A stretch of DNA of 64,000 bases from Calditrichia bacterium. GTDB taxonomy: Bacteria > Calditrichota > Calditrichia > RBG-13-44-9 > J075. A program made the translations under genes and the position numbers. The notes under the pieces were generated by a model. It was not told the origin of the DNA, did no database searches, and saw nothing but the letters and a program-made list of their open reading frames with translations. This document shows positions 4,554 through 63,066 of the stretch, one piece after another. The stretch lies in contig JANQQU010000085.1 in assembly GCA_028284905.1 (NCBI GenBank), positions 124,001 to 188,000 of the forward strand, read 5' to 3'. Positions within the stretch are counted from its first letter, which is position 1. Every line of letters starts with the position of its first letter.

Positions 4554-5912
4554 ATGACTGATGTTACTATTGCCTGGTTGGGAGGTTTTTCCAATCACCG
4601 GAAATGTCCGCTGGAGGATTTACGAAAGCTTTTTCGAATGAAAGTTTTTCAGGAGACGGATGCATTATCGCGGACGGAAAACCTTGAAAAATACCCAGTC
4701 GTGTTAATTAGTGAGGAATTTGCCGGGAAGCAAATGCAGGCGATTGTAAAACAGATCAAGCGCGCTTTACCACAAATCGTTGTTGTTGTCGTCGCATCCA
4801 GGGAGGTTCGGGCGATCGATCGCCTGTCCGGATGTTATTATTTGTCGTTACCAGCTGAAAGCAAGCAAACGAATATCTTTCTGATGCAATTCCTTCAGTT
4901 AATGATGGGCTGCTATCATCCGCTTCGCAAAACAGCCAATGCGCCGGATGCCCCGGTGATTGCCGAGAGTGCCGTCTTTAAAAGCACCCTGGCTTATGTT
5001 CGAAAAATTGCCGCGTTCGATGAAAATGTCCTTATCACCGGAGAAACCGGCACTGGCAAGGATATGCTTGCCAGGTATCTCCATCGGCATAGCTTTCGTG
5101 CTGCCCACCCTTGTCAAATTGTGAACTGCGCCGCGATCTCACCGGAGTTATTCGAATCGGAATTCTTTGGTCATACCAAGGGGGCATTTACCGGTGCGGC
5201 CCGCGAGAAAGTCGGGCATTTTGTGATTGCGAACCAGGGCACTTTAGTGTTGGATGAGATCACCGAAATGGATCGTCGTTTTCAGGTAAAATTGTTGCGA
5301 GCGATAGAAAACCAGGAGGTTTATCCGGTGGGCAGCCAGCAGGTCGTTCGCCTGAATCTGCGAATTGTTGCACTAAGCAATCGCAATCTCCCGGAAATGA
5401 TCCGCCTGGGGAAATTCCGCGCAGATCTTTTTTATCGCTTGAATAAATATAACATCCCGGTACCAGCTTTGAGTGAACGCGAGGGTGATATTCAGCCATT
5501 GGTAGAGTATTTTCTGGAGAATAGCTGGTATGCACTGTTGAAGAACTGGCGGGAAAATGTCGATCCGGAAATATATAGTTATTTGCAAAAACTGCGTTTA
5601 TCCGGGAATGTGCGGGATTTACAAAATCTGGTTCTGAAAGTGCTCTCATATAAGACGCCGGCGGATATTTGCCTGACCCGGGAAGATTTCGAACGAATCG
5701 TCATTAAGGATGGTTATCAATTTAAAACTGCTGCTGCCGGGGAGGATTTGATCGCATATTTACAGCGGATGGAATATCGGAAGATTATTACCGCTCTGGA
5801 TGAAAATGATCAGAACATCACCCGTGCTGCCCGTCAGCTGGGCGTTTCCCGGCAAAATCTGCAATACCGGCTACGACGACTGCGGCGTAATGATCTGCAA
5901 AAAGGAGCATGA
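4554..5912 (+). CDS. Sigma-54-dependent transcriptional activator with degenerate receiver
   Basis: A 452-residue bacterial enhancer-binding protein. Residues ~1-120 resemble a receiver domain in size and strand/helix alternation, but the place of the phospho-acceptor Asp reads 'YPVVLISEEF', so phosphorylation there is unlikely. The AAA+ domain (~135-370) has Walker A 'GETGTGKD' near residue 163, the sigma-54 contact loop 'GAFTGA' near 211-216 and Walker B 'GTLVLDEITEM'. A Fis-type helix-turn-helix closes the protein ('NITRAARQLGVSRQNLQYRL'). It is followed after 3 bp by the secretion/pilus ATPase, strongly suggesting one transcript and a role in controlling pilus or secretion genes. How the protein is switched on is unclear given the missing phosphosite. 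Confidence 0.92.
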   Translation: MTDVTIAWLGGFSNHRKCPLEDLRKLFRMKVFQETDALSRTENLEKYPVVLISEEFAGKQMQAIVKQIKRALPQIVVVVVASREVRAIDRLSGCYYLSLPAESKQTNIFLMQFLQLMMGCYHPLRKTANAPDAPVIAESAVFKSTLAYVRKIAAFDENVLITGETGTGKDMLARYLHRHSFRAAHPCQIVNCAAISPELFESEFFGHTKGAFTGAAREKVGHFVIANQGTLVLDEITEMDRRFQVKLLRAIENQEVYPVGSQQVVRLNLRIVALSNRNLPEMIRLGKFRADLFYRLNKYNIPVPALSEREGDIQPLVEYFLENSWYALLKNWRENVDPEIYSYLQKLRLSGNVRDLQNLVLKVLSYKTPADICLTREDFERIVIKDGYQFKTAAAGEDLIAYLQRMEYRKIITALDENDQNITRAARQLGVSRQNLQYRLRRLRRNDLQKGA

Positions 5913-5915
5913 TGA

Positions 5916-7385
5916 ATGGCCGCTAATCTGGCATCTCTCCCGGGAAAATATTTGCTGGAACATCAGATTTATCCGCTGATTGAAGATGCGGAAAATGCAC
6001 GCTTTGCCGCTGCGGAAAATTTACCAGCGCCACTGATCCATGAGCTGCAATTTTTGCTCGCCAAAAAAGTTGAAGTGGAGATTTGGCCGAAGGAGAAATT
6101 GAGCGAAGCCTTGTTAAAGTTCGCGCCAGATTCACAAGCGGCGGCGAGCAACGGAATTGGTGATCAGTTTGAGCATGTCGATAAGTCGATCGTAAATCAG
6201 ATCGAATCTGCCCATTTAGTAAATGAAGATCAGGTAGTCATTCAGCTAGTCAATACACTCATCAGCGAAGCGATTCGCCGGAAAGCCAGCGATATTCATC
6301 TGGAAAGCTATGAAGACGATTTCCGGATTCGCTTACGCATCGATGGGAAATTACAGATCTATCCGGCACCGGAAAAACGTTTGAAAAATGCGGTCATTTC
6401 CCGCCTGAAAATAATGGCCGATATGGACATCGCGGAGAAACGCCGGCCCCAGGACGGGCGGATCCGGATGAAATCTTCGGATCGCTTTACTGATATTCGA
6501 GCATCAACATTGCCAACCGATTTTGGTGAGAAAATGGTGCTGCGTATTCTCGATAAATCTGCCCTGAATCTTTCTTTGGAGAATTTGGGCATGCCGGATG
6601 ATATTCTTGAAAAATATCGCCAGGTGTTGTCTGCGCCGTATGGAATGGTGTTGGTTACCGGTCCGACCGGCAGCGGGAAAACGACGACGCTGTATGCCGG
6701 GCTCAATTATATTAATCGTCCGGACATCAATATTCTTACCATAGAAGATCCCATCGAGTATAATCTTGGCGGGATTAATCAAACTATGGTTAAGCCATCT
6801 ATTGGATTAACATTCGCTGCAATTTTACGCACCGCGCTGCGCCAGGACCCTAACACGATTATGTTAGGGGAAATCCGCGATAGCGAAACCGCTGAGATTG
6901 CCATACGAGCCTCGCTGACCGGGCATTTGCTCCTCAGTACACTGCACACCAATGATGCCATTAGCACCATTACCCGCCTCATTGATATGAAAATCCCACC
7001 TTTTTTGCTGGCCGGCGCATTAAAGCTGATTCTTTCCCAACGCCTGGTTCGGAAAATCTGCCCGGATTGTAAAACCCCTGAGAAGATTAGTGGGGAAATG
7101 ATTCGACGAGGCCGACTTCCCAGGTCGCTTGCCCGGGAAACTTTCTATAAAGGGGCCGGTTGTGAAAACTGCAATTTTAGCGGATACCGGGGGAGAGAAG
7201 CGGTAGTTGAAGCGTTAGTGATAGACGAAACCTTTAGCGAAAATATACTGAGTGGGAGCAGCCCCGGAAAGTTACGGGCGATAGCAAAAGAAAAAGGAAT
7301 ACGCTCGCTTTTTGATGCAGCATTGGATAAAGCCCGGCAGGGCATTACAAGCATTTCAGAGGTGCTCTTTGAAACCGGTTTTTAA
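5916..7385 (+). CDS. GspE/PulE/PilB-family secretion or type IV pilus assembly ATPase
   Basis: A 489-residue hexameric ATPase of type II secretion or type IV pili. After a short, diverged N-terminal domain (~110 residues) come the PAS-like/N2 region ('RKASDIHLESYEDDFRIRLR'), Walker A 'GPTGSGKTT' near residue 249, the Asp box 'ILTIEDPIEY', Walker B 'NTIMLGEIRDSETAEIA', and the His box 'TGHLLLSTLHTNDA'. The C-terminal zinc site is complete: 'CPDC' near 382 and 'CENC' near 416. The ATG at 5916 has an AAAGGAG ribosome site about 9 bp upstream, inside the end of the sigma-54 activator gene. No pilin, GspF/PilC or secretin gene is nearby, so which machine it powers is unknown. Confidence 0.92.
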   Translation: MAANLASLPGKYLLEHQIYPLIEDAENARFAAAENLPAPLIHELQFLLAKKVEVEIWPKEKLSEALLKFAPDSQAAASNGIGDQFEHVDKSIVNQIESAHLVNEDQVVIQLVNTLISEAIRRKASDIHLESYEDDFRIRLRIDGKLQIYPAPEKRLKNAVISRLKIMADMDIAEKRRPQDGRIRMKSSDRFTDIRASTLPTDFGEKMVLRILDKSALNLSLENLGMPDDILEKYRQVLSAPYGMVLVTGPTGSGKTTTLYAGLNYINRPDINILTIEDPIEYNLGGINQTMVKPSIGLTFAAILRTALRQDPNTIMLGEIRDSETAEIAIRASLTGHLLLSTLHTNDAISTITRLIDMKIPPFLLAGALKLILSQRLVRKICPDCKTPEKISGEMIRRGRLPRSLARETFYKGAGCENCNFSGYRGREAVVEALVIDETFSENILSGSSPGKLRAIAKEKGIRSLFDAALDKARQGITSISEVLFETGF

Positions 7386-7553
7386 CCGAGAAGAAATTTA
7401 CTGCTTATAAATAAACAGGGGTTTTTTAAATTCATTTCTTTTAGCAGAGTTTTTGCCTGGACTACAAATACGTAACCCCAAAAAAACAATTGCTTTTTGT
7501 TGATGCACAATCGAAATTGGTGATTTAACTAATCCCGAATTTAAAGGTAGATA

Positions 7554-7745
7554 ATGACTCAGGTAAATATCCACGAAGCGAAAACACGTCTTTCAAAGCT
7601 AATAGAATTGGTTCTTAATGGAGAAGAGATAATTATCGCTAAAAGAAATAAACCAGTTGCGAAACTCGTATCCATTAATTCGCTGGAACCGAAAAGAAAA
7701 ATTGGATCAGCAAAAGGTCAAATAACAATTGGTAAAGACTTTTGA
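7554..7745 (+). CDS. Phd/YefM-family antitoxin
   Basis: A 63-residue protein with the whole Phd/YefM (prevent-host-death) fold signature: 'VNIHEAKTRLSKLIELVLNG' followed by 'EEIIIAKRNKPVAKLV'. These antitoxins bind their own promoter and neutralise a partner toxin, here expected to be a PIN RNase. An AAAGG site lies about 7 bp before the ATG. Its toxin partner downstream is only a fragment, so this looks like an orphan antitoxin. The ~170 bp upstream of it are AT-rich and would hold its promoter/operator; no inverted repeat stood out there. Confidence 0.85.
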   Translation: MTQVNIHEAKTRLSKLIELVLNGEEIIIAKRNKPVAKLVSINSLEPKRKIGSAKGQITIGKDF

Positions 7746-7885
7746 TAAATCTGTTGGAAGTTTATTCCATTGAAACAATGCCATTTCATCATAAAGATCC
7801 TTTTGACAGGTTAATCATCGCGCAGAGTATCAGCAGGAATTATCCGATACTTAGCGCGGATGTGGCATTTGCGGTTTATTGGGTG
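7742..7885 (+). pseudogene. PIN-domain (VapC-like) toxin remnant
   Basis: The frame starting at the TTG overlapping the antitoxin stop encodes only a toxin start ('INLLEVYSIETM') joined directly to the C-terminal signature of short PIN toxins ('PFHHKDPFDRLIIAQS' and 'NYPILSADVAFAVYWV'). A typical VapC of this type has about 130 residues, with about 70 residues and the first catalytic acidic residues between these parts; those are missing here. Right after 'AFAVYWV' the sequence enters the 28-bp palindrome of the mobile element, so the last residues are lost too. The frame stays open to 7990, but that part is element DNA. The product is very unlikely to be an active RNase. Confidence 0.75.
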
Positions 7886-8249
7886 GTAGAGAAAATTCAT
7901 GAATTTTCTCTACGGAACCACCATCACCATCATTCAACCGAACAATCCGTTTCGATATCCCATTATCAAAATCGTAATCCCCTAAAATAATAACGAAATG
8001 AATATGATCCGGCATAACCACCCAGATATCCATAATTACTCGTGGATGATATTCCGGAATTTTAATCAGATGATAGGCGACAATATGCCCTTCATTGGAG
8101 AATCTCACTTTCCCTTTGATAACCTGACCTAATATCCTTTTACGTTGATGTACACAAACGGTTAGAAAATAGGCGCCCGGCGATGAATAATCCCAGGTCT
8201 GCAGACGATTCGGTTCAATCCGATATTTATTTCGAAATTTATCGGCCAT
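7851..8249 (-). CDS. REP-associated tyrosine transposase (Y1/HUH), C-terminally truncated
   Basis: A 132-residue frame with the N-terminal features of IS200-like RAYT transposases: 'WDYSSPGAYFLTVCVHQRKR' and the metal-binding HUH motif in 'VVMPDHIHFVI' near residues 90-100. Full-length relatives run to 165-200 residues and carry the nucleophilic Tyr on a helix after the HUH motif. Here the frame passes from 'DFDNGISKRIVRLNDGDGG' into the palindrome ('VEKIHEFSL') and then into antisense PIN DNA, so the catalytic Tyr is absent. An AGGGGA ribosome site precedes the ATG by 5-6 bp. It is probably inactive, and the element would need a full-length transposase elsewhere in the genome to move. Confidence 0.75.
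   Translation of the reverse strand: MADKFRNKYRIEPNRLQTWDYSSPGAYFLTVCVHQRKRILGQVIKGKVRFSNEGHIVAYHLIKIPEYHPRVIMDIWVVMPDHIHFVIILGDYDFDNGISKRIVRLNDGDGGSVEKIHEFSLPPNKPQMPHPR
7886..7913. repeat. Perfect 28-bp palindrome (REP-like element end)
   Basis: The half-site GTAGAGAAAATTCA is followed directly by its exact reverse complement, giving a perfect palindrome that can form a 14-bp hairpin. It is shared with 8368-8395 and lies in the 3' part of the truncated transposase gene, encoding VEKIHEFSL on both strands. Confidence 0.9.
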
Positions 8250-8367
8250 TTTATTCCCCTGAAATGGTATATAGGTTTTAATAATCCATTACCGGTTTTC
8301 TGCCCTTTTCAGAAATTTATGTTGTCAATATCGCATTTATCATTTTTTACCGACGCGATGATTCACC

Positions 8368-8395
8368 GTAGAGAAAAATCATGAATTTTCTCTAC
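8368..8395. repeat. 28-bp palindrome, second copy with one change
   Basis: Identical to the palindrome at 7886 except for one base in the left arm (GTAGAGAAAAATCA instead of GTAGAGAAAATTCA); the right arm is unchanged. It lies 118 bp upstream of the transposase start and about 120 bp before the next gene. Confidence 0.9.
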
Positions 8396-8518
8396 GCCCA
8401 ACGCCCAAAATCTGACGAAATTAAAAAACTAAAACGCATTTGCCGCCGGCGTGTATTATATTACTGTTCTGTAATTCGGCCTGTTTGGGAAATCTGCGTA
8501 GAAGTGTGAGGAGTGAAG

Positions 8519-11296
8519 ATGCAGCGAGATTCGGTAAATAAATTTTTTGCAGCGTTTGTTTTTCTAACCAGCTTCATCGTTTATGGCTTGACGATGGCGC
8601 CATCCGTATCCTTTTGGGATTGTGGTGAATTTATTGCCAGCTCCTATCGCCTGGCGATTCCCCATCCGCCCGGTGCGCCGCTTTATCTGCTGGTTGGCCG
8701 GGTATTTACCCTGATACCGGCATTTCTGATGTCCGATATCGCCAGCCGCGTTAACCTGATATCTGTGCTCTCCAGTGCCTTCACCGTGCTGTTCCTTTAT
8801 CTCTGTATTGTCCATCTCATCCGCCAGTATTTGAAAGAAACTGACGGCTTTTTACGCTATGTGCCCTATGCCGGTGCAATGATCGGCTCCCTGGTTTTCG
8901 CATTTTCCCACAGCTTCTGGTTTAATGCCGTGGAAGCGGAAGTATATGCGCCTTCCATGTTTTTTACCGGTATTATCGTTTGGTTAGTCTTTCGCTGGAG
9001 TGAGCGCCACGAAGAGATTGGCAACGAGAAATACCTGCTCCTGATCGCCTACCTGGTTGGTCTGGCCCTTGGGGTGCATTTGCTTAACGTCCTTGCTCTG
9101 CCGATGATTTTCCTGATCGTCTATTATCGCCGTTACGAAATGACCGTGAAAAGTTTTTTGATATTCGCTGTTGTTGGACTGCTGTTGATGCTGCTGGTCT
9201 ATCCGGTGATGGTCCATCGTATTCCCTGGCTGGTAAGTAAGATTGATTTTATCGGATTGGTTTTTGTTGTGCTCTTGATGATTGGCGGACTTTTTTACGC
9301 CATCAACAACCGTCAGCACATCCTTTCCCTGCTTCTTTCCGCGATTTTATTAATTATGATCGGATACGCTTCTTACCTGACTATTTATATCCGCTCCGGA
9401 TTAGATCCCAACATCGATGAAAACGATCCGGAAACCATCGAGGAATTCATCAAGTACATGGGGCGGGAACAGTATGGCGAACATCATTACGATCGCGATC
9501 GCCGCTGGCGGGAATCTGATAACGGCAAAAATTATGAGAGCGCTTCCCAGTTTTTCTGGGACTACCAGATCAACAAAATGTATGTGCGGTATTTCCTCTG
9601 GAATTTTGCCGGGGTGTCTGATAATAAGGTCGATTTTGATCTAAGCAAATTCTGGTTAATTCCGCTATTGCTTGGCATCGGGGGAATGGCCTATCATTTT
9701 CGCCGGGATCGAAAGCATGGGTTTGCCGTCTTTGTGCTGTTCTTTATGACCGGCCTGGCAATTGTTTTATATCTCAATCAACCGGATCCCCAGCCGCGGG
9801 AAAGGGATTACAGTTACGTCGGCTCCTTCTTCGCTTTTGCCATGTGGGTAGGGATTGGTGCTGCCGCCGCTCTGGAGATGCTGGTAAAATATACCCGGAA
9901 AACCTCTGAGGGATTGAGCAATAATCTCGGTTGGGCGCTCACCATTCTTCTCCTGCTTGCCGGACCGGGCAGAATGCTGGCAATGAATTATGACACCCAC
10001 GATCGTACCGGTAATTATGTTGCCTGGGATTATTCATATAATATGTTAGTTTCCTGCGAAACAGGCGGTGTCCTCTTTACTAACGGTGATAATGACACCT
10101 TTCCCCTCTGGTATCTGCAGGAAGTGGAAGGCATTAAAACCGATGTGCGCATTGCCAACCTCAGCCTGCTGAATACTTCCTGGTATATCGAGCAGCTAAA
10201 AAAGCGCGAGCCCCGCGTGCCAATTTCATTGTCAGATGAAAGAATCGCCAACGTCAATCTGGTAATGTGGCCGGAGGAGCAGGAGTTCGAAGTACCGATT
10301 GTCAAAAAGAGAAACTGGCGGGCAGAAGCGGATCGTTACCAATTGGCGTTGGATATGGACAGCGCATCCGTTCCGCAAAGCATGAAATTTAAAGTAAAAC
10401 CGAAACTCACCTTGCCGACCCCGGACGGGCAAATGGTCGGCGTGCTGCGGGTGCAGGATTTAATGATTCTGAATATCCTTACCGCTAACCAATTTGAAAA
10501 ACCACTCTATTTCTCCTTCACTACCGGCACTGGTAATCAGCTGGACGGTTTGCAGGATTATATGCGCATGGATGGCATTCTATTGCGAATCACCCCGTAT
10601 AAAGACTGGGATATCGCCCCGGATCGCGCCTATGATCTTATAATGAATAAGTTCAAATTCCGTAATTTGAACAATCCCGATGTATATTACGATGCTAGCA
10701 CCATCCGCCTGCTGCAAAACTATCGCTCGGCCTATTACCGCCTCGCCGATCATTTTCTGAAGACGAATGACAAGGAGCGTTTTGTCAAGCTGACGGAAAA
10801 AATGAATGATGTGATGCCGGAGTCGGTAATTCCCTTTAACAATCCAACCCTGCGCCGGGTAATGACCGGTCTGGCATTTATGGCAGAGGTTCGTCCGCTT
10901 GAGGAGATGGAAAAAGAAGAATTCTCCCTGATGGATTTGCGCATTTTCGGAGAGATGGGAGAGCAATATAATTATCCGAGAGTAGGCATTCCTGCTTTGG
11001 AAAAAGTGCTCGAAGTAGCGCTCAATGATCCGACAAATCCCGGTATCGAAGAACAAATCCGCAGTGTTTTCCGGCAGGATAGTTATTATCAACAGGCCTC
11101 GGAAGCTGAAAAGGAAATGGTCCGGAAAAAAGCGGTCGTTGAACCAGTGCGGCAGCGACTGGTTACCATGTATGAAAAAGTGGGTGAAATCGGAAAAGCC
11201 CGGGATATTTTAGTTAAATGGCAGGAAGAAGAACCGGGAAATCGTTTTATTAATGAAAACCTGCCGCGGATCGAACAAAAGCTTGAAGAAGAGTAG
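8519..11296 (+). CDS. DUF2723 membrane protein, putative glycosyltransferase (copy 1)
   Basis: A ~925-residue multi-span membrane protein of the DUF2723 family (related to TMEM260-type O-mannosyltransferases, CAZy GT117). The family signature is at the N-terminus: 'FWDCGEFIASSYRLAIPHPP' and 'NAVEAEVYAPSM'. About 11-13 membrane helices fill residues ~10-490, including a 'NQPDPQPRERDYSYVGSFFA' loop. The C-terminal ~400 residues are soluble, and the last ~150 look helical and TPR-like. The ATG at 8519 is preferred over GTG 8513 because AGGAG at 8509-8513 ends 5 bp before it. It is closely similar to the gene at 12679, and a GT2 gene lies between them. Likely role: sugar transfer from a lipid-linked donor to exported proteins or glycans (inference). 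Confidence 0.88.
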   Translation: MQRDSVNKFFAAFVFLTSFIVYGLTMAPSVSFWDCGEFIASSYRLAIPHPPGAPLYLLVGRVFTLIPAFLMSDIASRVNLISVLSSAFTVLFLYLCIVHLIRQYLKETDGFLRYVPYAGAMIGSLVFAFSHSFWFNAVEAEVYAPSMFFTGIIVWLVFRWSERHEEIGNEKYLLLIAYLVGLALGVHLLNVLALPMIFLIVYYRRYEMTVKSFLIFAVVGLLLMLLVYPVMVHRIPWLVSKIDFIGLVFVVLLMIGGLFYAINNRQHILSLLLSAILLIMIGYASYLTIYIRSGLDPNIDENDPETIEEFIKYMGREQYGEHHYDRDRRWRESDNGKNYESASQFFWDYQINKMYVRYFLWNFAGVSDNKVDFDLSKFWLIPLLLGIGGMAYHFRRDRKHGFAVFVLFFMTGLAIVLYLNQPDPQPRERDYSYVGSFFAFAMWVGIGAAAALEMLVKYTRKTSEGLSNNLGWALTILLLLAGPGRMLAMNYDTHDRTGNYVAWDYSYNMLVSCETGGVLFTNGDNDTFPLWYLQEVEGIKTDVRIANLSLLNTSWYIEQLKKREPRVPISLSDERIANVNLVMWPEEQEFEVPIVKKRNWRAEADRYQLALDMDSASVPQSMKFKVKPKLTLPTPDGQMVGVLRVQDLMILNILTANQFEKPLYFSFTTGTGNQLDGLQDYMRMDGILLRITPYKDWDIAPDRAYDLIMNKFKFRNLNNPDVYYDASTIRLLQNYRSAYYRLADHFLKTNDKERFVKLTEKMNDVMPESVIPFNNPTLRRVMTGLAFMAEVRPLEEMEKEEFSLMDLRIFGEMGEQYNYPRVGIPALEKVLEVALNDPTNPGIEEQIRSVFRQDSYYQQASEAEKEMVRKKAVVEPVRQRLVTMYEKVGEIGKARDILVKWQEEEPGNRFINENLPRIEQKLEEE

Positions 11297-12678: not shown

Positions 12679-15483
12679 ATGAACGATAAAATGCAGCATC
12701 GACTGTTTGCAGGCTTTTCTTTCCTCCTTAGCCTGGCTATTTATCTGAAAACGATGGCACCCACAGTTGCATTCTGGGATTGCGGTGAATTTATCGCTTG
12801 TGCCTATCGTTTGGCAATACCACACCCGCCCGGCGCACCGCTCTACTTATTGGTAGGCCGTGTCTTCACTTTAATCCCGGCGTTTATTATTGAAGATATC
12901 GCGAAACGCGTGAATCTGATTTCCGCCCTGTCCAGCGCGGTGACGATTCTTTTCCTGCATATGACCATCGTGCATCTCATTAAGGAATACATGCGGGAAG
13001 AGCTCGCAGATCCGTTCCTGAAGTATGTGCCGCATATTGGTGCAGTCATCGGCTCGCTGGCTTTTGCATTCAGCCATAGTTTCTGGTTCAATGCTGTAGA
13101 AGCAGAAGTTTATGCGCCGTCTATGCTCTTTACCGGCATCTGTGTTTGGTTAGTATTTCGCTGGAGCGAGAAAAGCGATGAGATTGGCAATGAAAAATAT
13201 CTGCTGCTAATCGCCTACATGATGGGCCTTGCCATCGGCGTTCACTTGCTGAACGTACTTACGCTACCGATGATTTTCCTGGTGATTTATTACAAGCGTT
13301 TCGAAATCAACATGACCACATTTTTCACCATGGTTGCCATAGGATTAGGATTAACCTTACTGGTATATCCCGGCATGGTAAAAGGAATACCGGTGCTTGT
13401 GCACCAAATTGGTTTTGAGGGAATGATCTTCCTCGTCGTCGCTGCCGGCGGTATATTGGGCTATGCGGTAAATAATGGCCAAAAAGCGTTAGCACTGGTG
13501 ATTACCTGCCTCTTGCTGATTACCATCGGATACTCCTCTTATTTAATGATTTACATCCGTTCCGGACTGGATCCCAATATCGATGAAAACAATCCGGAAA
13601 CGGTTGAGAAGTTTATCAGCTATATGAATCGCGAGCAGTATGGAGAACATCACTTCGACCGAGCCCGTCGCTGGAAAGAATCGCCGAATGGCAATCAATA
13701 CAGCAGCGGTATGGATTTCTTCTGGCGTTATCAGATCAACGAAATGTATGTGCGCTATTTCCTCTGGAATTTCGGTGGTATCGAAGAAAACACCAACTTT
13801 TCCCGGGAGCGAAAACGGGCGGATGTGATGCGATTCTGGGCATTACCGTTATTGCTCGGCCTCATCGGAGGATATTATCATTTCATGAAAGATCGAAGGC
13901 ATGGCCTGGCGATTTTTGTATTGTTCTTTATGACCGGCCTGGCAATCGTGCTCTATCTTAACCAACCGGACCCGCAGCCAAGGGAAAGGGACTACAGTTA
14001 TGTCGGTTCGTTTTTTGCCTTTTCGATTTGGATTGGGATTGGTGCTGCGGCAATCCTGGAAAATATTTATAAAGCGGTGGCGAAAAAAGAAGGTGCCGGC
14101 GGTGCTATCGGCTGGATCGTTGCGGTACTGCTGTTTGCCCTGGTGCCGATGCGCATGATGGCAGTAAACTATAACGTTCATGATCGCACCGGCAACTTTG
14201 TCGCCCACGATTATTCCCGTAATATGCTCGCCTCCGCAGGACCAAACGGTATTATGTTCACCAATGGTGATAATGATACTTTTCCCTTATGGTATTTGCA
14301 GGAAGTCGAGAAATATCGTACCGATGTTCGTGTCGCGAATCTTAGCCTGCTGAATACTTCCTGGTATATTGAGCAGCTTAAGAACAAAGAGCCGAAAGTG
14401 CCGATCAGTTTTAGCGATACAGAAATTGAGGCAATGAAGTATCCGGTTCCCTGGAAGGAAAGAAAGGTAGAGGTGTCTACCATTTCGGAAACTGCCCGCC
14501 GGGCGGAAGCGGAACGATACCGTCTCTCACTGGGTATCGATGATAGCTTGACAATACCGGATAAAGTGACATTCAATGTGAAACCGAAGATGCAAATTCC
14601 CGGCAGGGGAGGGGCATTGCGAATTCAGGACTGGATGATCCTGAATATTCTCATCACCAACCAATTCGAGAATCCGATTTATTTCGCGGTGACAACTTCC
14701 GATCAGAACCGTCTGGATGAATTGAAAAGATATCAGAAGATGGATGGTTTACTGTTCCAGGTTACCAGTATTAGGGATTGGACGATTGAGCCGGAAAAGC
14801 TTTATGATAACCTGATGAACAAATTCGTTTATCGAAATCTGAACAACCCGGATGTTTACTATAATGAGAACATTATCGGGTTGCTGCAAAATTATCGCTC
14901 GGCTTTCTTCCGCCTGGGAACTCATTATCTTGATAGTGGGAACGAGGCGCGTTTCGAGGAAGTTATGCAAAGACTATATGAAATAATGCCGCCGGAGGTG
15001 ATACCATTTACCCATAATCAGTTCGAAGAAGTGCTCACGGCATTTGCTACTATGGCGAATGTTTACAGCAAGGATCAGCTAACTGTGGATTCAATGGGCA
15101 TGCGCCAATTGCAGGCCGTCGGAGAAATTTCTCTGAATTATAAAAAATACGATCTGGCCGAGGTCGCTTATCAACAAGTGCTTGCCCCATTATTGGATAA
15201 CCCGCAGGGCGAACTGGTGCAATCGTACATGCGCGGTATTACCCGCAATCCGGCGCTGTACGATCAGGCGACCGAAGATCAGCGGAATCAGATCTTACAG
15301 TCGGCTATTTCGCAAATCAAGCGGCAGATTGTAACCGTCTATAAAGATAGCAAAAATTACGACACTGCCATTGAAGTGCTTAATGGCTGGTTGAGCAAAG
15401 ACGCCAACGATCAATACGCCAAACAGCAGCTGGATGCCTTTAAAAATCTGAAAGCAACTGCGGAAGCGCCTGAGGGTACCTGA
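12679..15483 (+). CDS. DUF2723 membrane protein, putative glycosyltransferase (copy 2)
   Basis: A 934-residue paralogue of the protein at 8519, aligning along its whole length with long identical runs such as 'EFIACAYRLAIPHPPGAPLY', 'EIGNEKYLLLIAYMMG' and 'NQPDPQPRERDYSYVGSFFA'. The N-terminal half holds about a dozen membrane helices; the C-terminal part (from ~490) is soluble and ends in TPR-like helices. GAGGAG lies about 12 bp before the ATG. Its 3' end is 14 bp from the UPF0104-type protein, so the two are probably co-transcribed. The pair most likely arose by local duplication and may differ in acceptor; this is inferred from similarity and position only. Confidence 0.88.
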   Translation: MNDKMQHRLFAGFSFLLSLAIYLKTMAPTVAFWDCGEFIACAYRLAIPHPPGAPLYLLVGRVFTLIPAFIIEDIAKRVNLISALSSAVTILFLHMTIVHLIKEYMREELADPFLKYVPHIGAVIGSLAFAFSHSFWFNAVEAEVYAPSMLFTGICVWLVFRWSEKSDEIGNEKYLLLIAYMMGLAIGVHLLNVLTLPMIFLVIYYKRFEINMTTFFTMVAIGLGLTLLVYPGMVKGIPVLVHQIGFEGMIFLVVAAGGILGYAVNNGQKALALVITCLLLITIGYSSYLMIYIRSGLDPNIDENNPETVEKFISYMNREQYGEHHFDRARRWKESPNGNQYSSGMDFFWRYQINEMYVRYFLWNFGGIEENTNFSRERKRADVMRFWALPLLLGLIGGYYHFMKDRRHGLAIFVLFFMTGLAIVLYLNQPDPQPRERDYSYVGSFFAFSIWIGIGAAAILENIYKAVAKKEGAGGAIGWIVAVLLFALVPMRMMAVNYNVHDRTGNFVAHDYSRNMLASAGPNGIMFTNGDNDTFPLWYLQEVEKYRTDVRVANLSLLNTSWYIEQLKNKEPKVPISFSDTEIEAMKYPVPWKERKVEVSTISETARRAEAERYRLSLGIDDSLTIPDKVTFNVKPKMQIPGRGGALRIQDWMILNILITNQFENPIYFAVTTSDQNRLDELKRYQKMDGLLFQVTSIRDWTIEPEKLYDNLMNKFVYRNLNNPDVYYNENIIGLLQNYRSAFFRLGTHYLDSGNEARFEEVMQRLYEIMPPEVIPFTHNQFEEVLTAFATMANVYSKDQLTVDSMGMRQLQAVGEISLNYKKYDLAEVAYQQVLAPLLDNPQGELVQSYMRGITRNPALYDQATEDQRNQILQSAISQIKRQIVTVYKDSKNYDTAIEVLNGWLSKDANDQYAKQQLDAFKNLKATAEAPEGT

Positions 15484-59906: not shown

Positions 59907-61454
59907 ATGGGCAATAATAGAAGTCTGACAAATAATGGTCTGGAAGATATGGCGCTGGTCGCATTTATTGGAGAAACGTCCTCGGAATTAGCCGGACGAA
60001 TCGGGGAGAGTCTCAAAGCCGCAGGCATGAAAATTCATGTTTTCAGCAGCATGGACGATTTAGTCGAAAATACAGAGAAAACTCTTCCCGATATATTATT
60101 GCTCAATCCGAAATTAGTCAAAAATGGCGTTGCCGCCAAAGTCCTTTACCCGAAAACCCCCACAATGATTTACAGCTCGCAGATGGATGCTGACCAACGG
60201 CTGGATTATTACAGCCAGGGGGTAAAGCGCGTTATCGTTGAACCGGAAGATCTCGCCGAAAGAGTGGCTTCTGCTGCCGGAATGATGATCTATCGCCGGA
60301 ACGATATGCGCATGGCTCGCTTGCAATCGCTGACACATGGCACTGTCAAAGCATTTTCCTTGCAGGAAGTACTGCAAAACGCCTTGTTGGAAGAAAAAAA
60401 CCTTATCCTGAAGATCAAGAATGATGCCTGGGATGCCAAACTTCGCCTTTTTCAGGGACATATCGTAAACGCATTTACTGCGAATCTCAGCAACGAAGCT
60501 GCAGTCCTGAAAACGCTGCAATTATCCAAGGGATCTTTCGTTATTCGTGGATACCAAAAGCTGGAAGAGTTTTCCCCGATGTCGGCTTCTACGCTGGCAA
60601 TTTTGGCGGAAACAAAATTCGAGAAAAAATATACCCGGCATTTTCTGGAACTGCGCTGTAATGGCGTGGACAATCCGGAATTCGAAACTGTTCCAGCCGG
60701 CCTGGAAGGCGCGCTTTCCGACGAGCAAAACAAAATTATGCTCCAGTTGATTGAGCGTTACCGGAATTTCCAGGATATTCTTTTACATAGCCCCTATGCA
60801 ATTTTGAAGTCTTTGCGGGTATTGGATCGTTTATCCGAAATGGGTGCGATTGCCCCGGCAGGCGAACAGCCGGCCCCGCCACGGGAAAGTTTTCGGGAAA
60901 GTTTTAGTGAAAGTGATATCGAGTTTCTGCGTGAGCTTTTTCCGGAAAATGCGAAAGTCGGTAGCCTGGCTGTTCTCGGTGCGCCTACTTCCGGCCGGAG
61001 TGAGCTGATTCGCGCTGTAGCCGGTTTTCAGCAGTCAACGGTTAAAACAGTCAAGTCAGTCGATTTTGCACGGATTCCCATTCGGAAAGATACGATTTTA
61101 ACACTTTTTGGTGTTTCCATCGAAGAGGCTTTTTTGCCGATTCTGGAAAAGATATCCGAAAGCCTGATCGGCTGCCTTTTTCTGATCGACTGTAGTAATC
61201 CCGGAACGTTTGAATTTATTAATTACCTAGCCAGCCGGATTATTCAAATCTATGAAGTGCCCTTTGCAGTTGGCTTGACCAACACCGGCGATGATGTTGA
61301 AGCAGCAATGAAAACTTACCGGCAGCATTTTAAGCTCCCGGGAGATATTCCGGTGATTCCGGTGCAGGCGGATAAATTTTCTGACGCCAAGGCGTTGCTT
61401 TATCAATTGAAACAAGAAGATGATGAATTAGAAGAAGATAGCGAGGAAGTTTAA
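59907..61454 (+). CDS. Pseudo-receiver / PATAN (DUF4388) / pseudo-GTPase protein
   Basis: A 515-residue cytoplasmic protein with three parts. Residues ~14-130 look like a receiver domain in which the phospho-acceptor Asp is replaced ('PDILLLNPKLV'). Residues ~140-330 resemble DUF4388/PATAN ('GTVKAFSLQEVLQNALLEEK', 'LRLFQGHIVNAF', 'SKGSFVIRG'). Residues ~345-505 resemble an MglA/COG2229-type small GTPase, but the P-loop reads 'GAPTSGRSEL' (Lys lost), the G3 region reads 'TLFGVSIEEAF' where relatives have FGTPGQE, and the G4 motif reads 'LTNTGDD' instead of NKxD. It is the first gene of a three-gene overlapping operon. Molecular role unknown; a non-catalytic scaffold is likely. Confidence 0.7.
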   Translation: MGNNRSLTNNGLEDMALVAFIGETSSELAGRIGESLKAAGMKIHVFSSMDDLVENTEKTLPDILLLNPKLVKNGVAAKVLYPKTPTMIYSSQMDADQRLDYYSQGVKRVIVEPEDLAERVASAAGMMIYRRNDMRMARLQSLTHGTVKAFSLQEVLQNALLEEKNLILKIKNDAWDAKLRLFQGHIVNAFTANLSNEAAVLKTLQLSKGSFVIRGYQKLEEFSPMSASTLAILAETKFEKKYTRHFLELRCNGVDNPEFETVPAGLEGALSDEQNKIMLQLIERYRNFQDILLHSPYAILKSLRVLDRLSEMGAIAPAGEQPAPPRESFRESFSESDIEFLRELFPENAKVGSLAVLGAPTSGRSELIRAVAGFQQSTVKTVKSVDFARIPIRKDTILTLFGVSIEEAFLPILEKISESLIGCLFLIDCSNPGTFEFINYLASRIIQIYEVPFAVGLTNTGDDVEAAMKTYRQHFKLPGDIPVIPVQADKFSDAKALLYQLKQEDDELEEDSEEV

Positions 61455-62590
61455 TGCGCGATCTGTTAATCTATTTGTTGGACACAGAGTATGCCGAGCA
61501 TATTCGTTACCTGTTTTCCGGCGAATCTTATAAAATTACCATTATCGAAAACCTCGAGGATGTCGTTGAGGCTTGCCAGCAGGAATTATTCGACCTGGCA
61601 ATGGTTTGGCCGGCGAGTGTGGAGAAAACGGTTAATTTCCTCACCCTGATGGAAACCAGCCTCTTTAATTACGTGCCGGTCATTGCGGTGACTCCCGAAG
61701 ACGAGGCTTTGGCACCCTATTATAAGCTACAGCTGGTAGAATTGATGAAGCTGCCGGTAGAGAAAGTAGAATTCCTCAATATCCTCGATAGCGTGCTTCT
61801 CGACGTCGAAACGGAATCCACTGTGGTTGAGGGAATGAACTGGCAGGGAAGTCTGGAAGAATATAATCTGATCGATCTTATTCAAATGGTCGAAACCGGT
61901 GGGCGAGATGCGGAATTGACTATCACGGAAAATGATATCAGCGCCTCCGTCTTTTTTCATCAGGGACAATTAATCAGCGCCCGGCTGGATTCTTTACAGG
62001 GATTGGATGCGCTCAAGAAACTGATTTTCTGGCCGCGCGGGCATTTCCAAACCAAGTTAACCGAATTAGGATCCAGCAAGGATGAAATCGGTACCAGCAA
62101 TGCCGATATCCTGATGGTGCTGATGGAATCCCTGGTAAAACAGGAACAGCTCTATCAGGGACTGCCGGAGCCATTCGATGAGATTCTCCGAAATCCATTG
62201 GAAACCGTTGAGGAAATGACACCGTTGCAACATCGGATTTCCGAGTGTTGCCAGCGCCCGTTAACAGTATGGGAATTGCTGATGACCCTGACGGATAGTA
62301 ATGAAGACATTATGCTTGAGCTTAAGATAATGATGCAAATGGAGTTGATCGGTTACCGCTCGGAAGTCGAGAAACTGGTGCGCGATCATGAGGAACAGTC
62401 CGGTATCGAAAAATTCTTCTCTTCCATTTCTTCCATGTTTAAAAAGAAAGATGCGGCAGAAGAAGGATACTATTTTTATGATGAGATGAATGGCGAATAT
62501 CTCACCCCGAAATTAGAAGTCAATCCATTAAAATTGCATCGCCGCGAATTAGAGAAAATCACAAAAAAACTTGAAGAACTTGCGGAATGA
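61454..62590 (+). CDS. Pseudo-receiver / PATAN (DUF4388) protein
   Basis: A 378-residue protein. Residues ~1-115 form a receiver-like domain whose phosphosite reads 'FDLAMVWPASV', so it cannot be phosphorylated in the usual way. Residues ~125-235 are a clear DUF4388/PATAN domain ('WQGSLEEYNLIDLIQMVETG', 'ASVFFHQGQLISARLDSLQG', 'LIFWPRGHFQTKL'). The C-terminal part (~255-378) is helical, with a possible winged-helix ('TVWELLMTLTDSNEDIMLEL'). Its ATG overlaps the previous stop (TAATG) and its end overlaps the next start (ATGA). PATAN domains in cyanobacterial PatA-type regulators act in phototaxis and pilus control. Confidence 0.78.
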   Translation: MRDLLIYLLDTEYAEHIRYLFSGESYKITIIENLEDVVEACQQELFDLAMVWPASVEKTVNFLTLMETSLFNYVPVIAVTPEDEALAPYYKLQLVELMKLPVEKVEFLNILDSVLLDVETESTVVEGMNWQGSLEEYNLIDLIQMVETGGRDAELTITENDISASVFFHQGQLISARLDSLQGLDALKKLIFWPRGHFQTKLTELGSSKDEIGTSNADILMVLMESLVKQEQLYQGLPEPFDEILRNPLETVEEMTPLQHRISECCQRPLTVWELLMTLTDSNEDIMLELKIMMQMELIGYRSEVEKLVRDHEEQSGIEKFFSSISSMFKKKDAAEEGYYFYDEMNGEYLTPKLEVNPLKLHRRELEKITKKLEELAE

Positions 62591-63066
62591 AAATCGTAGA
62601 AACAGCAGTTTGGACGCATAATCAGAACCTTTTTGAAGAATTAAGCCAACGTTTGCCATTGGATAAAACTTCAGTTATGAATATAGATGTGCATCGTTTT
62701 GAAATCGATGATGAGCTGGTGGTATTGATGTATGAATTCCGCAATGGCGTTAAATATCCTCCGGAATTACTTGACCATCTCGAACATCATTTGGCCGGTT
62801 TGCTGATCGTAACGGAAAGTAAGAACGCGCTTGAGATTGCCGAAACGCCGGAAGATGTAGATAAGCTGGCAGAAAAGTTGGTTGACAAGCCGACGGTAAT
62901 GGCGGTGAAACTTGCACCGGGAAAAATATCCGCAATGAATGGTGCGATTAGCGAAGATGGATTTTATCTTTCTCCGCGGGGACGTATAGCATTCTGGCAT
63001 CCGGAAGCCGGGGATTCCACCCTGAAAGTTTGGGAAATGATCTGGAAATCCTTGCAGGTATCCTGA
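62587..63066 (+). CDS. Hypothetical protein, degenerate MglA-like GTPase fold
   Basis: A 159-residue protein. It follows the strand order of small MglA/COG2229-type GTPases ('VMNIDVHRFEIDDELVVLMY', 'HLAGLLIVTESKNALEIAE', 'DKPTVMAVKLAPGK'), but the P-loop region reads 'ETAVWTHNQNLFEEL', with no GxxxxGK, and the NKxD site is absent. Nucleotide binding is thus unlikely. It is coupled to the PATAN protein by a 4-bp ATGA overlap and is the last gene of the operon; a GGGAA/TTCCC hairpin near 63075 follows. The fold call is by eye and tentative. Confidence 0.6.
   Translation: MKIVETAVWTHNQNLFEELSQRLPLDKTSVMNIDVHRFEIDDELVVLMYEFRNGVKYPPELLDHLEHHLAGLLIVTESKNALEIAETPEDVDKLAEKLVDKPTVMAVKLAPGKISAMNGAISEDGFYLSPRGRIAFWHPEAGDSTLKVWEMIWKSLQVS

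Follow-up and report, generated by a model that had tools for sequence, protein, structure and literature searches.

Pseudo-GTPases and pseudo-receivers are known singly, and a locus in a Calditrichia bacterium raises the question of what an operon uniting both might do—that is, whether it is a signalling operon in decay or a system maintained for a purpose other than catalysis. Within the window, by which we mean the whole 64,000-nucleotide stretch of DNA analyzed, three overlapping open reading frames were called on the plus strand between positions 59907 and 63066, and are designated here G1, G2, and G3. The junctions TAATG (G1/G2) and ATGA (G2/G3) on which the original prediction of a three-gene operon was based are both present in the sequence. 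We propose, with a probability of roughly 0.55, that the three proteins act together as a conserved signalling adaptor that is largely non-catalytic, descends from a PATAN/MglA-type module, and would function as a membrane-associated heteromer. The comparisons described below cover 40 genomes of the class and 345 other genomes.

Domain composition of the operon

G1 (59907..61454; 515 aa) contains a pseudo-receiver, a PATAN domain, a winged-helix-like region, and a degenerate Arf/MglA-like G domain, as assigned from the ORF call, AlphaFold, Foldseek, and its orthologues. G2 (61454..62590; 378 aa) contains a pseudo-receiver, a PATAN domain, a winged-helix-like region, and a tail, the assignment being based on the ORF call, a profile match, and collinearity with residues 19–327 of G1. 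G3 (62587..63066; 159 aa) is a stand-alone G domain without a P-loop, identified from the ORF call, AlphaFold, Foldseek, and collinearity with residues 354–512 of G1.

Two PATAN (DUF4388; Pfam PF14332) domains had been expected in the operon, and both were recovered, with different degrees of directness. On profile evidence the domain is certain in G2, in which residues 131–225 matched with an E value of 5e-13 and 49.5 bits against a cut-off of 25 (domain placed at approximately residues 130–230; 61841..62143). The match in G1 is weak (E 6e-5 and 23.5 bits, just below the Pfam cut-off; residues 144–214), and the assignment there is supported via the orthologues, 28 of 30 of which matched the profile at E ≤ 0.05 (approximately residues 141–250; 60327..60656).

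Structure models based on alignments of orthologues bore out the predicted receiver and GTPase folds for G1 and G3. The G1 model (pLDDT 87.4) showed Foldseek matches in the PDB to both receivers and Arf/Ras GTPases; its receiver matched that of VicR with a TMt of 0.83, and PDB profile matches were found as well. For the G3 model (pLDDT 89.8, pTM 0.86), the top 50 Foldseek matches in the PDB were all G-protein folds, mostly of the Arf/Ras type. The receiver and winged-helix regions of G2 are putative assignments from profile comparison with G1 (hhalign). Identification of G3 as a PF10015 or PF15517 protein was rejected, the matches being weak and below the cut-off, and the fold giving no support. 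The triplet had no match in PHROGs or PADLOC, and hence these collections gave no indication of a link to phages or defence.

Receiver domains without phosphorylation residues

Both receivers lack the phospho-acceptor Asp, as had been read from the sequence. In the G1 pseudo-receiver (residues 16–126; 59952..60284; PDB profile matches, Foldseek, and alignment), Asn67 (60105–60107) was found by alignment to replace the Asp residue, and in G2 the position is occupied by Trp52 (61607..61609; alignment with 33 orthologues). Indeed, the G2 position is Trp, Val, Ala, or Ile in all 33 orthologues, and never Asp. The corresponding G1 position is Asp in some class genomes and many other residues elsewhere, and no class G1 in which that region is present has the switch Lys, the window G1 included. 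Outside the class, the G1 of genome G229 has an acidic pair, Asp, Lys, and a P-loop that all look intact, and Pfam recognizes an ordinary receiver in it.

G domains and the state of the P-loop

The G domain of G1 (residues 335–505; 60909..61421; Foldseek, alignment, and hhalign) carries the degenerate P-loop GAPTSGRS (60978..61001; sequence and alignment), in which Lys is replaced by Arg; the G3 motif (TPGQ/DxxG) is replaced by FGVSIEE and the G4 motif (NKxD) by GLTNTGDD. The original description of this domain, namely a P-loop GAPTSGRS with Lys lost and no NKxD motif, was thus correct in each element but overstated the loss, since the loop is preserved apart from a Lys-to-Arg substitution. 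In the window family the loop reads GxPx[SA]GRS in four of six members and GMPESGRS in the other two; since the altered loop is well kept apart from this substitution, the G1 proteins of this family may still bind nucleotide or phosphate.

Across the class, the P-loop of G1 exists in three states, with Lys in 8, Arg in 7, and the loop lost in 22 of 37 genomes. The Arg state is shared by G038 and all six window-family genomes in the sample, and the G1 proteins of family f6 have no P-loop. A tree of the 37 proteins requires at least 8 changes among the three states, pointing to several independent losses. The G3 and G4 motifs are kept in no G1, even where the P-loop is intact, and the Thr of the G2 motif is absent from those members that were aligned.

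The stand-alone G3 protein has gone further. A motif search combined with the model revealed no P-loop (GxxxxGK[S/T]), no TPGQ/DxxG, and no NKxD in it, in agreement with the prediction that the last protein would lack a P-loop. In the model, strand beta-1 and helix alpha-1 are linked by two residues, indicating that the phosphate-binding loop is absent as a structure and not merely as a motif. G3 can therefore be classed, by its predicted fold, the absence of motifs, and selection (dN/dS 0.08–0.22), as a probable pseudoGTPase.

Judged by motifs, the G2 receiver and G3 appear to be non-catalytic in every class copy seen. Homologues with an intact P-loop and Asp, which the original prediction regarded as the sign of a local decay, do exist for G1—8 class proteins with respect to the P-loop, and the G229 protein with respect to both P-loop and receiver—but G2 and G3 are never intact in the class. 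The intact P-loops suggest that G1 was once competent and has been eroded repeatedly. G2 and G3, with no intact copy in the class, would have died early.

These homologues also lend some weight to the view that G1 is still a nucleotide-regulated switch, with G2 and G3 as its dedicated non-catalytic partners in an asymmetric pair of active and pseudo copies; the retained P-loop Lys and the well-kept loop of the window family are what such a switch would be expected to show. However, this view has to accommodate the absence of the G3 and G4 motifs from all G1 proteins, the missing G2-motif Thr, and the complete and repeated disappearance of the loop elsewhere in the class, and we regard it as unlikely.

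Origin by duplication

Profile comparisons relate all parts of the operon to G1. With hhalign, G2 matched residues 19–327 of G1 (99.8%, E 7e-28) and G3 matched residues 354–512, within the G domain (96.1%, E 3e-9), so that G2 is collinear with the N-terminal half of G1 and G3 with the C-terminal half, the two together covering it from end to end. Furthermore, G2 and G3 form one ORF in three genomes (G027, G030, and G039), and the alignment of this ORF with G1 is almost full-length. Taken together, the collinearity and the fused frame show, at the level of profiles and models, a duplicated REC-PATAN-winged-helix-G-domain protein, with G1 as the first copy and G2 plus G3 as a split second copy. 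The simplest account would be duplication, after which either the second copy was split or its parts were rejoined later in a single clade. The three fusion loci (L055, L063, and L073) belong to family f5; the frame at L055 is shorter, and one stop was read through there.

Both G domains also matched intact TPGQ-type GTPases with hhalign (99.7%, E 2e-26 for G1; 96.7%, E 4e-10 for G3). Relatives with intact catalytic motifs occur in other lineages, as single-domain TPGQ GTPases whose genes adjoin those of PATAN or Roadblock proteins.

Genomic context and suggested partners

The PATAN domains invite comparison with type IV pilus control, which had been suggested as a role for the triplet. In Synechocystis, PATAN-CheY proteins bind the PilB motor (PMC10519157, PMC7690835), and a PilB/GspE-type ATPase is encoded in the window itself (5916–7385). 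However, three class genomes (G016, G028, and G038) keep the triplet with no match to a PilB/PilT/GspE-type protein at E ≤ 1e-30, so a general role in pilus control is not supported; in addition, the triplet proteins differ in domain order, with the receiver first, and no PilT was found above the cut-off in the 100% complete window genome. Regulation of pili by the triplet, in the manner of the cyanobacterial response regulators, is consequently improbable. The ATPase in the window may serve a secretion system or a non-retracting pilus system. Directly upstream of its gene lies that of an NtrC-like sigma-54 activator (4554–5912), the N-terminal receiver region of which looks degenerate by eye. 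Two very similar membrane proteins of 927 and 934 aa (8513–11296 and 12679–15483), with a glycosyltransferase-like gene between them, are also encoded in the window and look like a tandem duplication.

The most regular neighbours of the triplet are RNA methyltransferases: in 29 of the 30 class loci whose upstream sequence could be read, the triplet is immediately preceded, on its own strand, by an RlmD-like or SpoU gene, and a function of the triplet tied to these enzymes might be supposed from this adjacency. The window is the sole exception. In its genome the RlmD-like/SpoU block is intact 28 kb away, without NtrBC and with an acetyltransferase-like gene following it instead, so the two have been parted and neither has been lost. 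Moreover, the triplets and pairs found outside the class have other neighbours, and no domain of the three proteins points to RNA binding; a functional tie thus has little to recommend it.

A read-out of the NtrB/NtrC pair, which is adjacent to the triplet on the same strand in the window and had been put forward as its possible input, is very improbable: the arrangement is unique to the window genome and hence local, 29 of 30 class loci adjoining the methyltransferases instead, and the receivers lack the residues for phosphorylation. The possibility of a sigma-54 promoter ahead of G1 was dismissed, since the best candidate has 3 mismatches and sites of this kind occur less often than chance would predict; scans for sigma-70 promoters and terminators gave results close to background.

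Roadblock proteins were detected in 39 of the 40 class genomes. In the window genome, the only Roadblock match is on contig C7, beside an intact MglA, and there is none in the triplet operon. The C7 locus (L077, G000:C7:82000-98000; 4585–10833) encodes a histidine kinase, a receiver, PATAN and Roadblock proteins, and the intact MglA (GPGMCGKTT, NKRD). A complete kinase-REC-PATAN-Roadblock-MglA cluster, and with it a canonical switch, therefore coexists with the triplet in this genome. Since nearly every genome of the class has both the triplet and MglA, their co-occurrence carries no information. Peptidase_MA_2-like genes were noted near the G359 triplet and the G084 G1-G2 pair (L122, 5561–6526, and L116, 5880–6824), and a similar gene adjoins the MglA cluster described above (L077, 11007–11939); this neighbour, compared by eye, suggests a possible link between the triplet and MglA modules.

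Distribution and selection

Class relatives have the three genes in an unchanged order, and orthologous triplets were recovered in nearly all of the 40 sampled genomes. G3 is present in 38 of them, and the two without it are 86–88% complete. Among the 345 genomes outside the class, G359 has the full triplet, and G229 and G084 have the G1-G2 pair. G1 and G2 are joined by a stop-start overlap or short spacing in most genomes. The window genome measures 8.55 Mb. Scans of genome contigs for close relatives returned none for G3 and two for G2, in the same family as the window. Across all three genes, dN/dS ranged from 0.03 to 0.22 in three congeneric pairs, in one of which dS is saturated.

Although several catalytic sites are substituted, local decay of an ordinary signalling operon is ruled out for practical purposes by this class-wide retention, the strong purifying selection, and the absence of frameshifts from the window copy, in line with the original view of a maintained system.

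Proposed mechanism

The reading that we prefer is that of a largely non-catalytic adaptor. The three proteins would assemble into a single heteromer, with the G domain of each copy contacting its counterpart in the other, as the co-operonic arrangement of the genes and the fusion in three related genomes indirectly suggest. The receivers and G domains would act as binding surfaces of a scaffold, and a signal would pass by binding and conformation rather than by phosphorylation or GTP hydrolysis.

Placement of the complex on the membrane is a weaker element of this mechanism, and could be provided by the tail of G2. A conserved basic amphipathic segment, QSGIEKFFSSISSMFKKK (residues 315–332; 62396..62449; moment-and-charge score), is the most conserved part of this tail, with Phe329 nearly invariant, and is a candidate helix for binding a membrane or a partner. 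The D factor, which combines moment and charge, was never below 1.1 there in the 33 G2 proteins and had its protein-wide maximum at the motif in 22 of them; the other 11 score higher in another window of the protein, and the outgroup G2 proteins gave no clear signal. The D factor is a rule of thumb, and the motif was picked after its conservation had been seen; the segment suggests, at this level, a candidate membrane-binding helix.

As to the target, our best guess, made with low confidence, is an MglA-type polarity or envelope module; speculatively, the complex might scaffold or position some partner belonging to the MglA/Roadblock/PATAN polarity module. The most specific form of the proposal is an obligate membrane-anchored hetero-assembly of two duplicated REC-PATAN-G-domain copies, operating without phosphoryl transfer or GTP hydrolysis, in which the loss of chemistry would be derived and selected, the nucleotide site of G1 having been lost several times independently and the complex kept class-wide. 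This full form is tentative, and we consider it possible rather than probable.

Relation to known systems

Literature searches found no paper describing this triplet; the known systems that come closest share parts of it. MglA-family small GTPases (PF03029/Arf-like, TPGQ type) are often encoded beside PATAN and Roadblock proteins (PMC4316618), and PATAN genes occasionally occur near Group 1 and 5 MglA genes (Wuichet and Sogaard-Andersen 2014, PMC4316618, citing Makarova et al. 2006 for MglB). By profile comparison, both G domains of the triplet are homologous to this family, and PATAN genes adjoin TPGQ-type GTPases in genomes G052 and G200. Unlike the MglA family, G1 is fused to REC-PATAN, motifs G2–G4 are lost, the P-loop is altered or absent, and the operon has no Roadblock GAP. 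The combination of REC and PATAN is shared with the phototaxis regulators PixG, PixE, and PilG (PMC7690835, PMC10519157), which, however, have an N-terminal PATAN domain and bind PilB; in the triplet the receiver comes first and is non-phosphorylatable, and PilB/PilT is dispensable for co-occurrence.

A pseudo-receiver is also found in FrzS of Myxococcus, where it serves polarity and motility by binding proteins (PMC11580455), but FrzS has a coiled coil and neither a PATAN nor a G domain. The pseudoGTPase domains of p190RhoGAP likewise keep G folds without GTPase chemistry in a multidomain regulator (PMC5593906); that protein is eukaryotic and has no receiver or PATAN domain, and the likeness is one of retained fold and lost chemistry. 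New here are the class-wide retention under selection, the G1-derived duplication with a split copy, the class-wide survey of sites, and the conserved G2 segment.

For finding the triplet in new genomes, the RlmD-like/SpoU adjacency is a reliable handle. The proteins form a natural series—from G229, with its intact-looking P-loop and receiver, through the Arg P-loops of the window family, to G3 and the G1 of family f6 without a P-loop—in which the step from switch to scaffold can be tested. If the proposal is true, receiver and G-domain folds can be maintained solely for the binding surfaces they offer.
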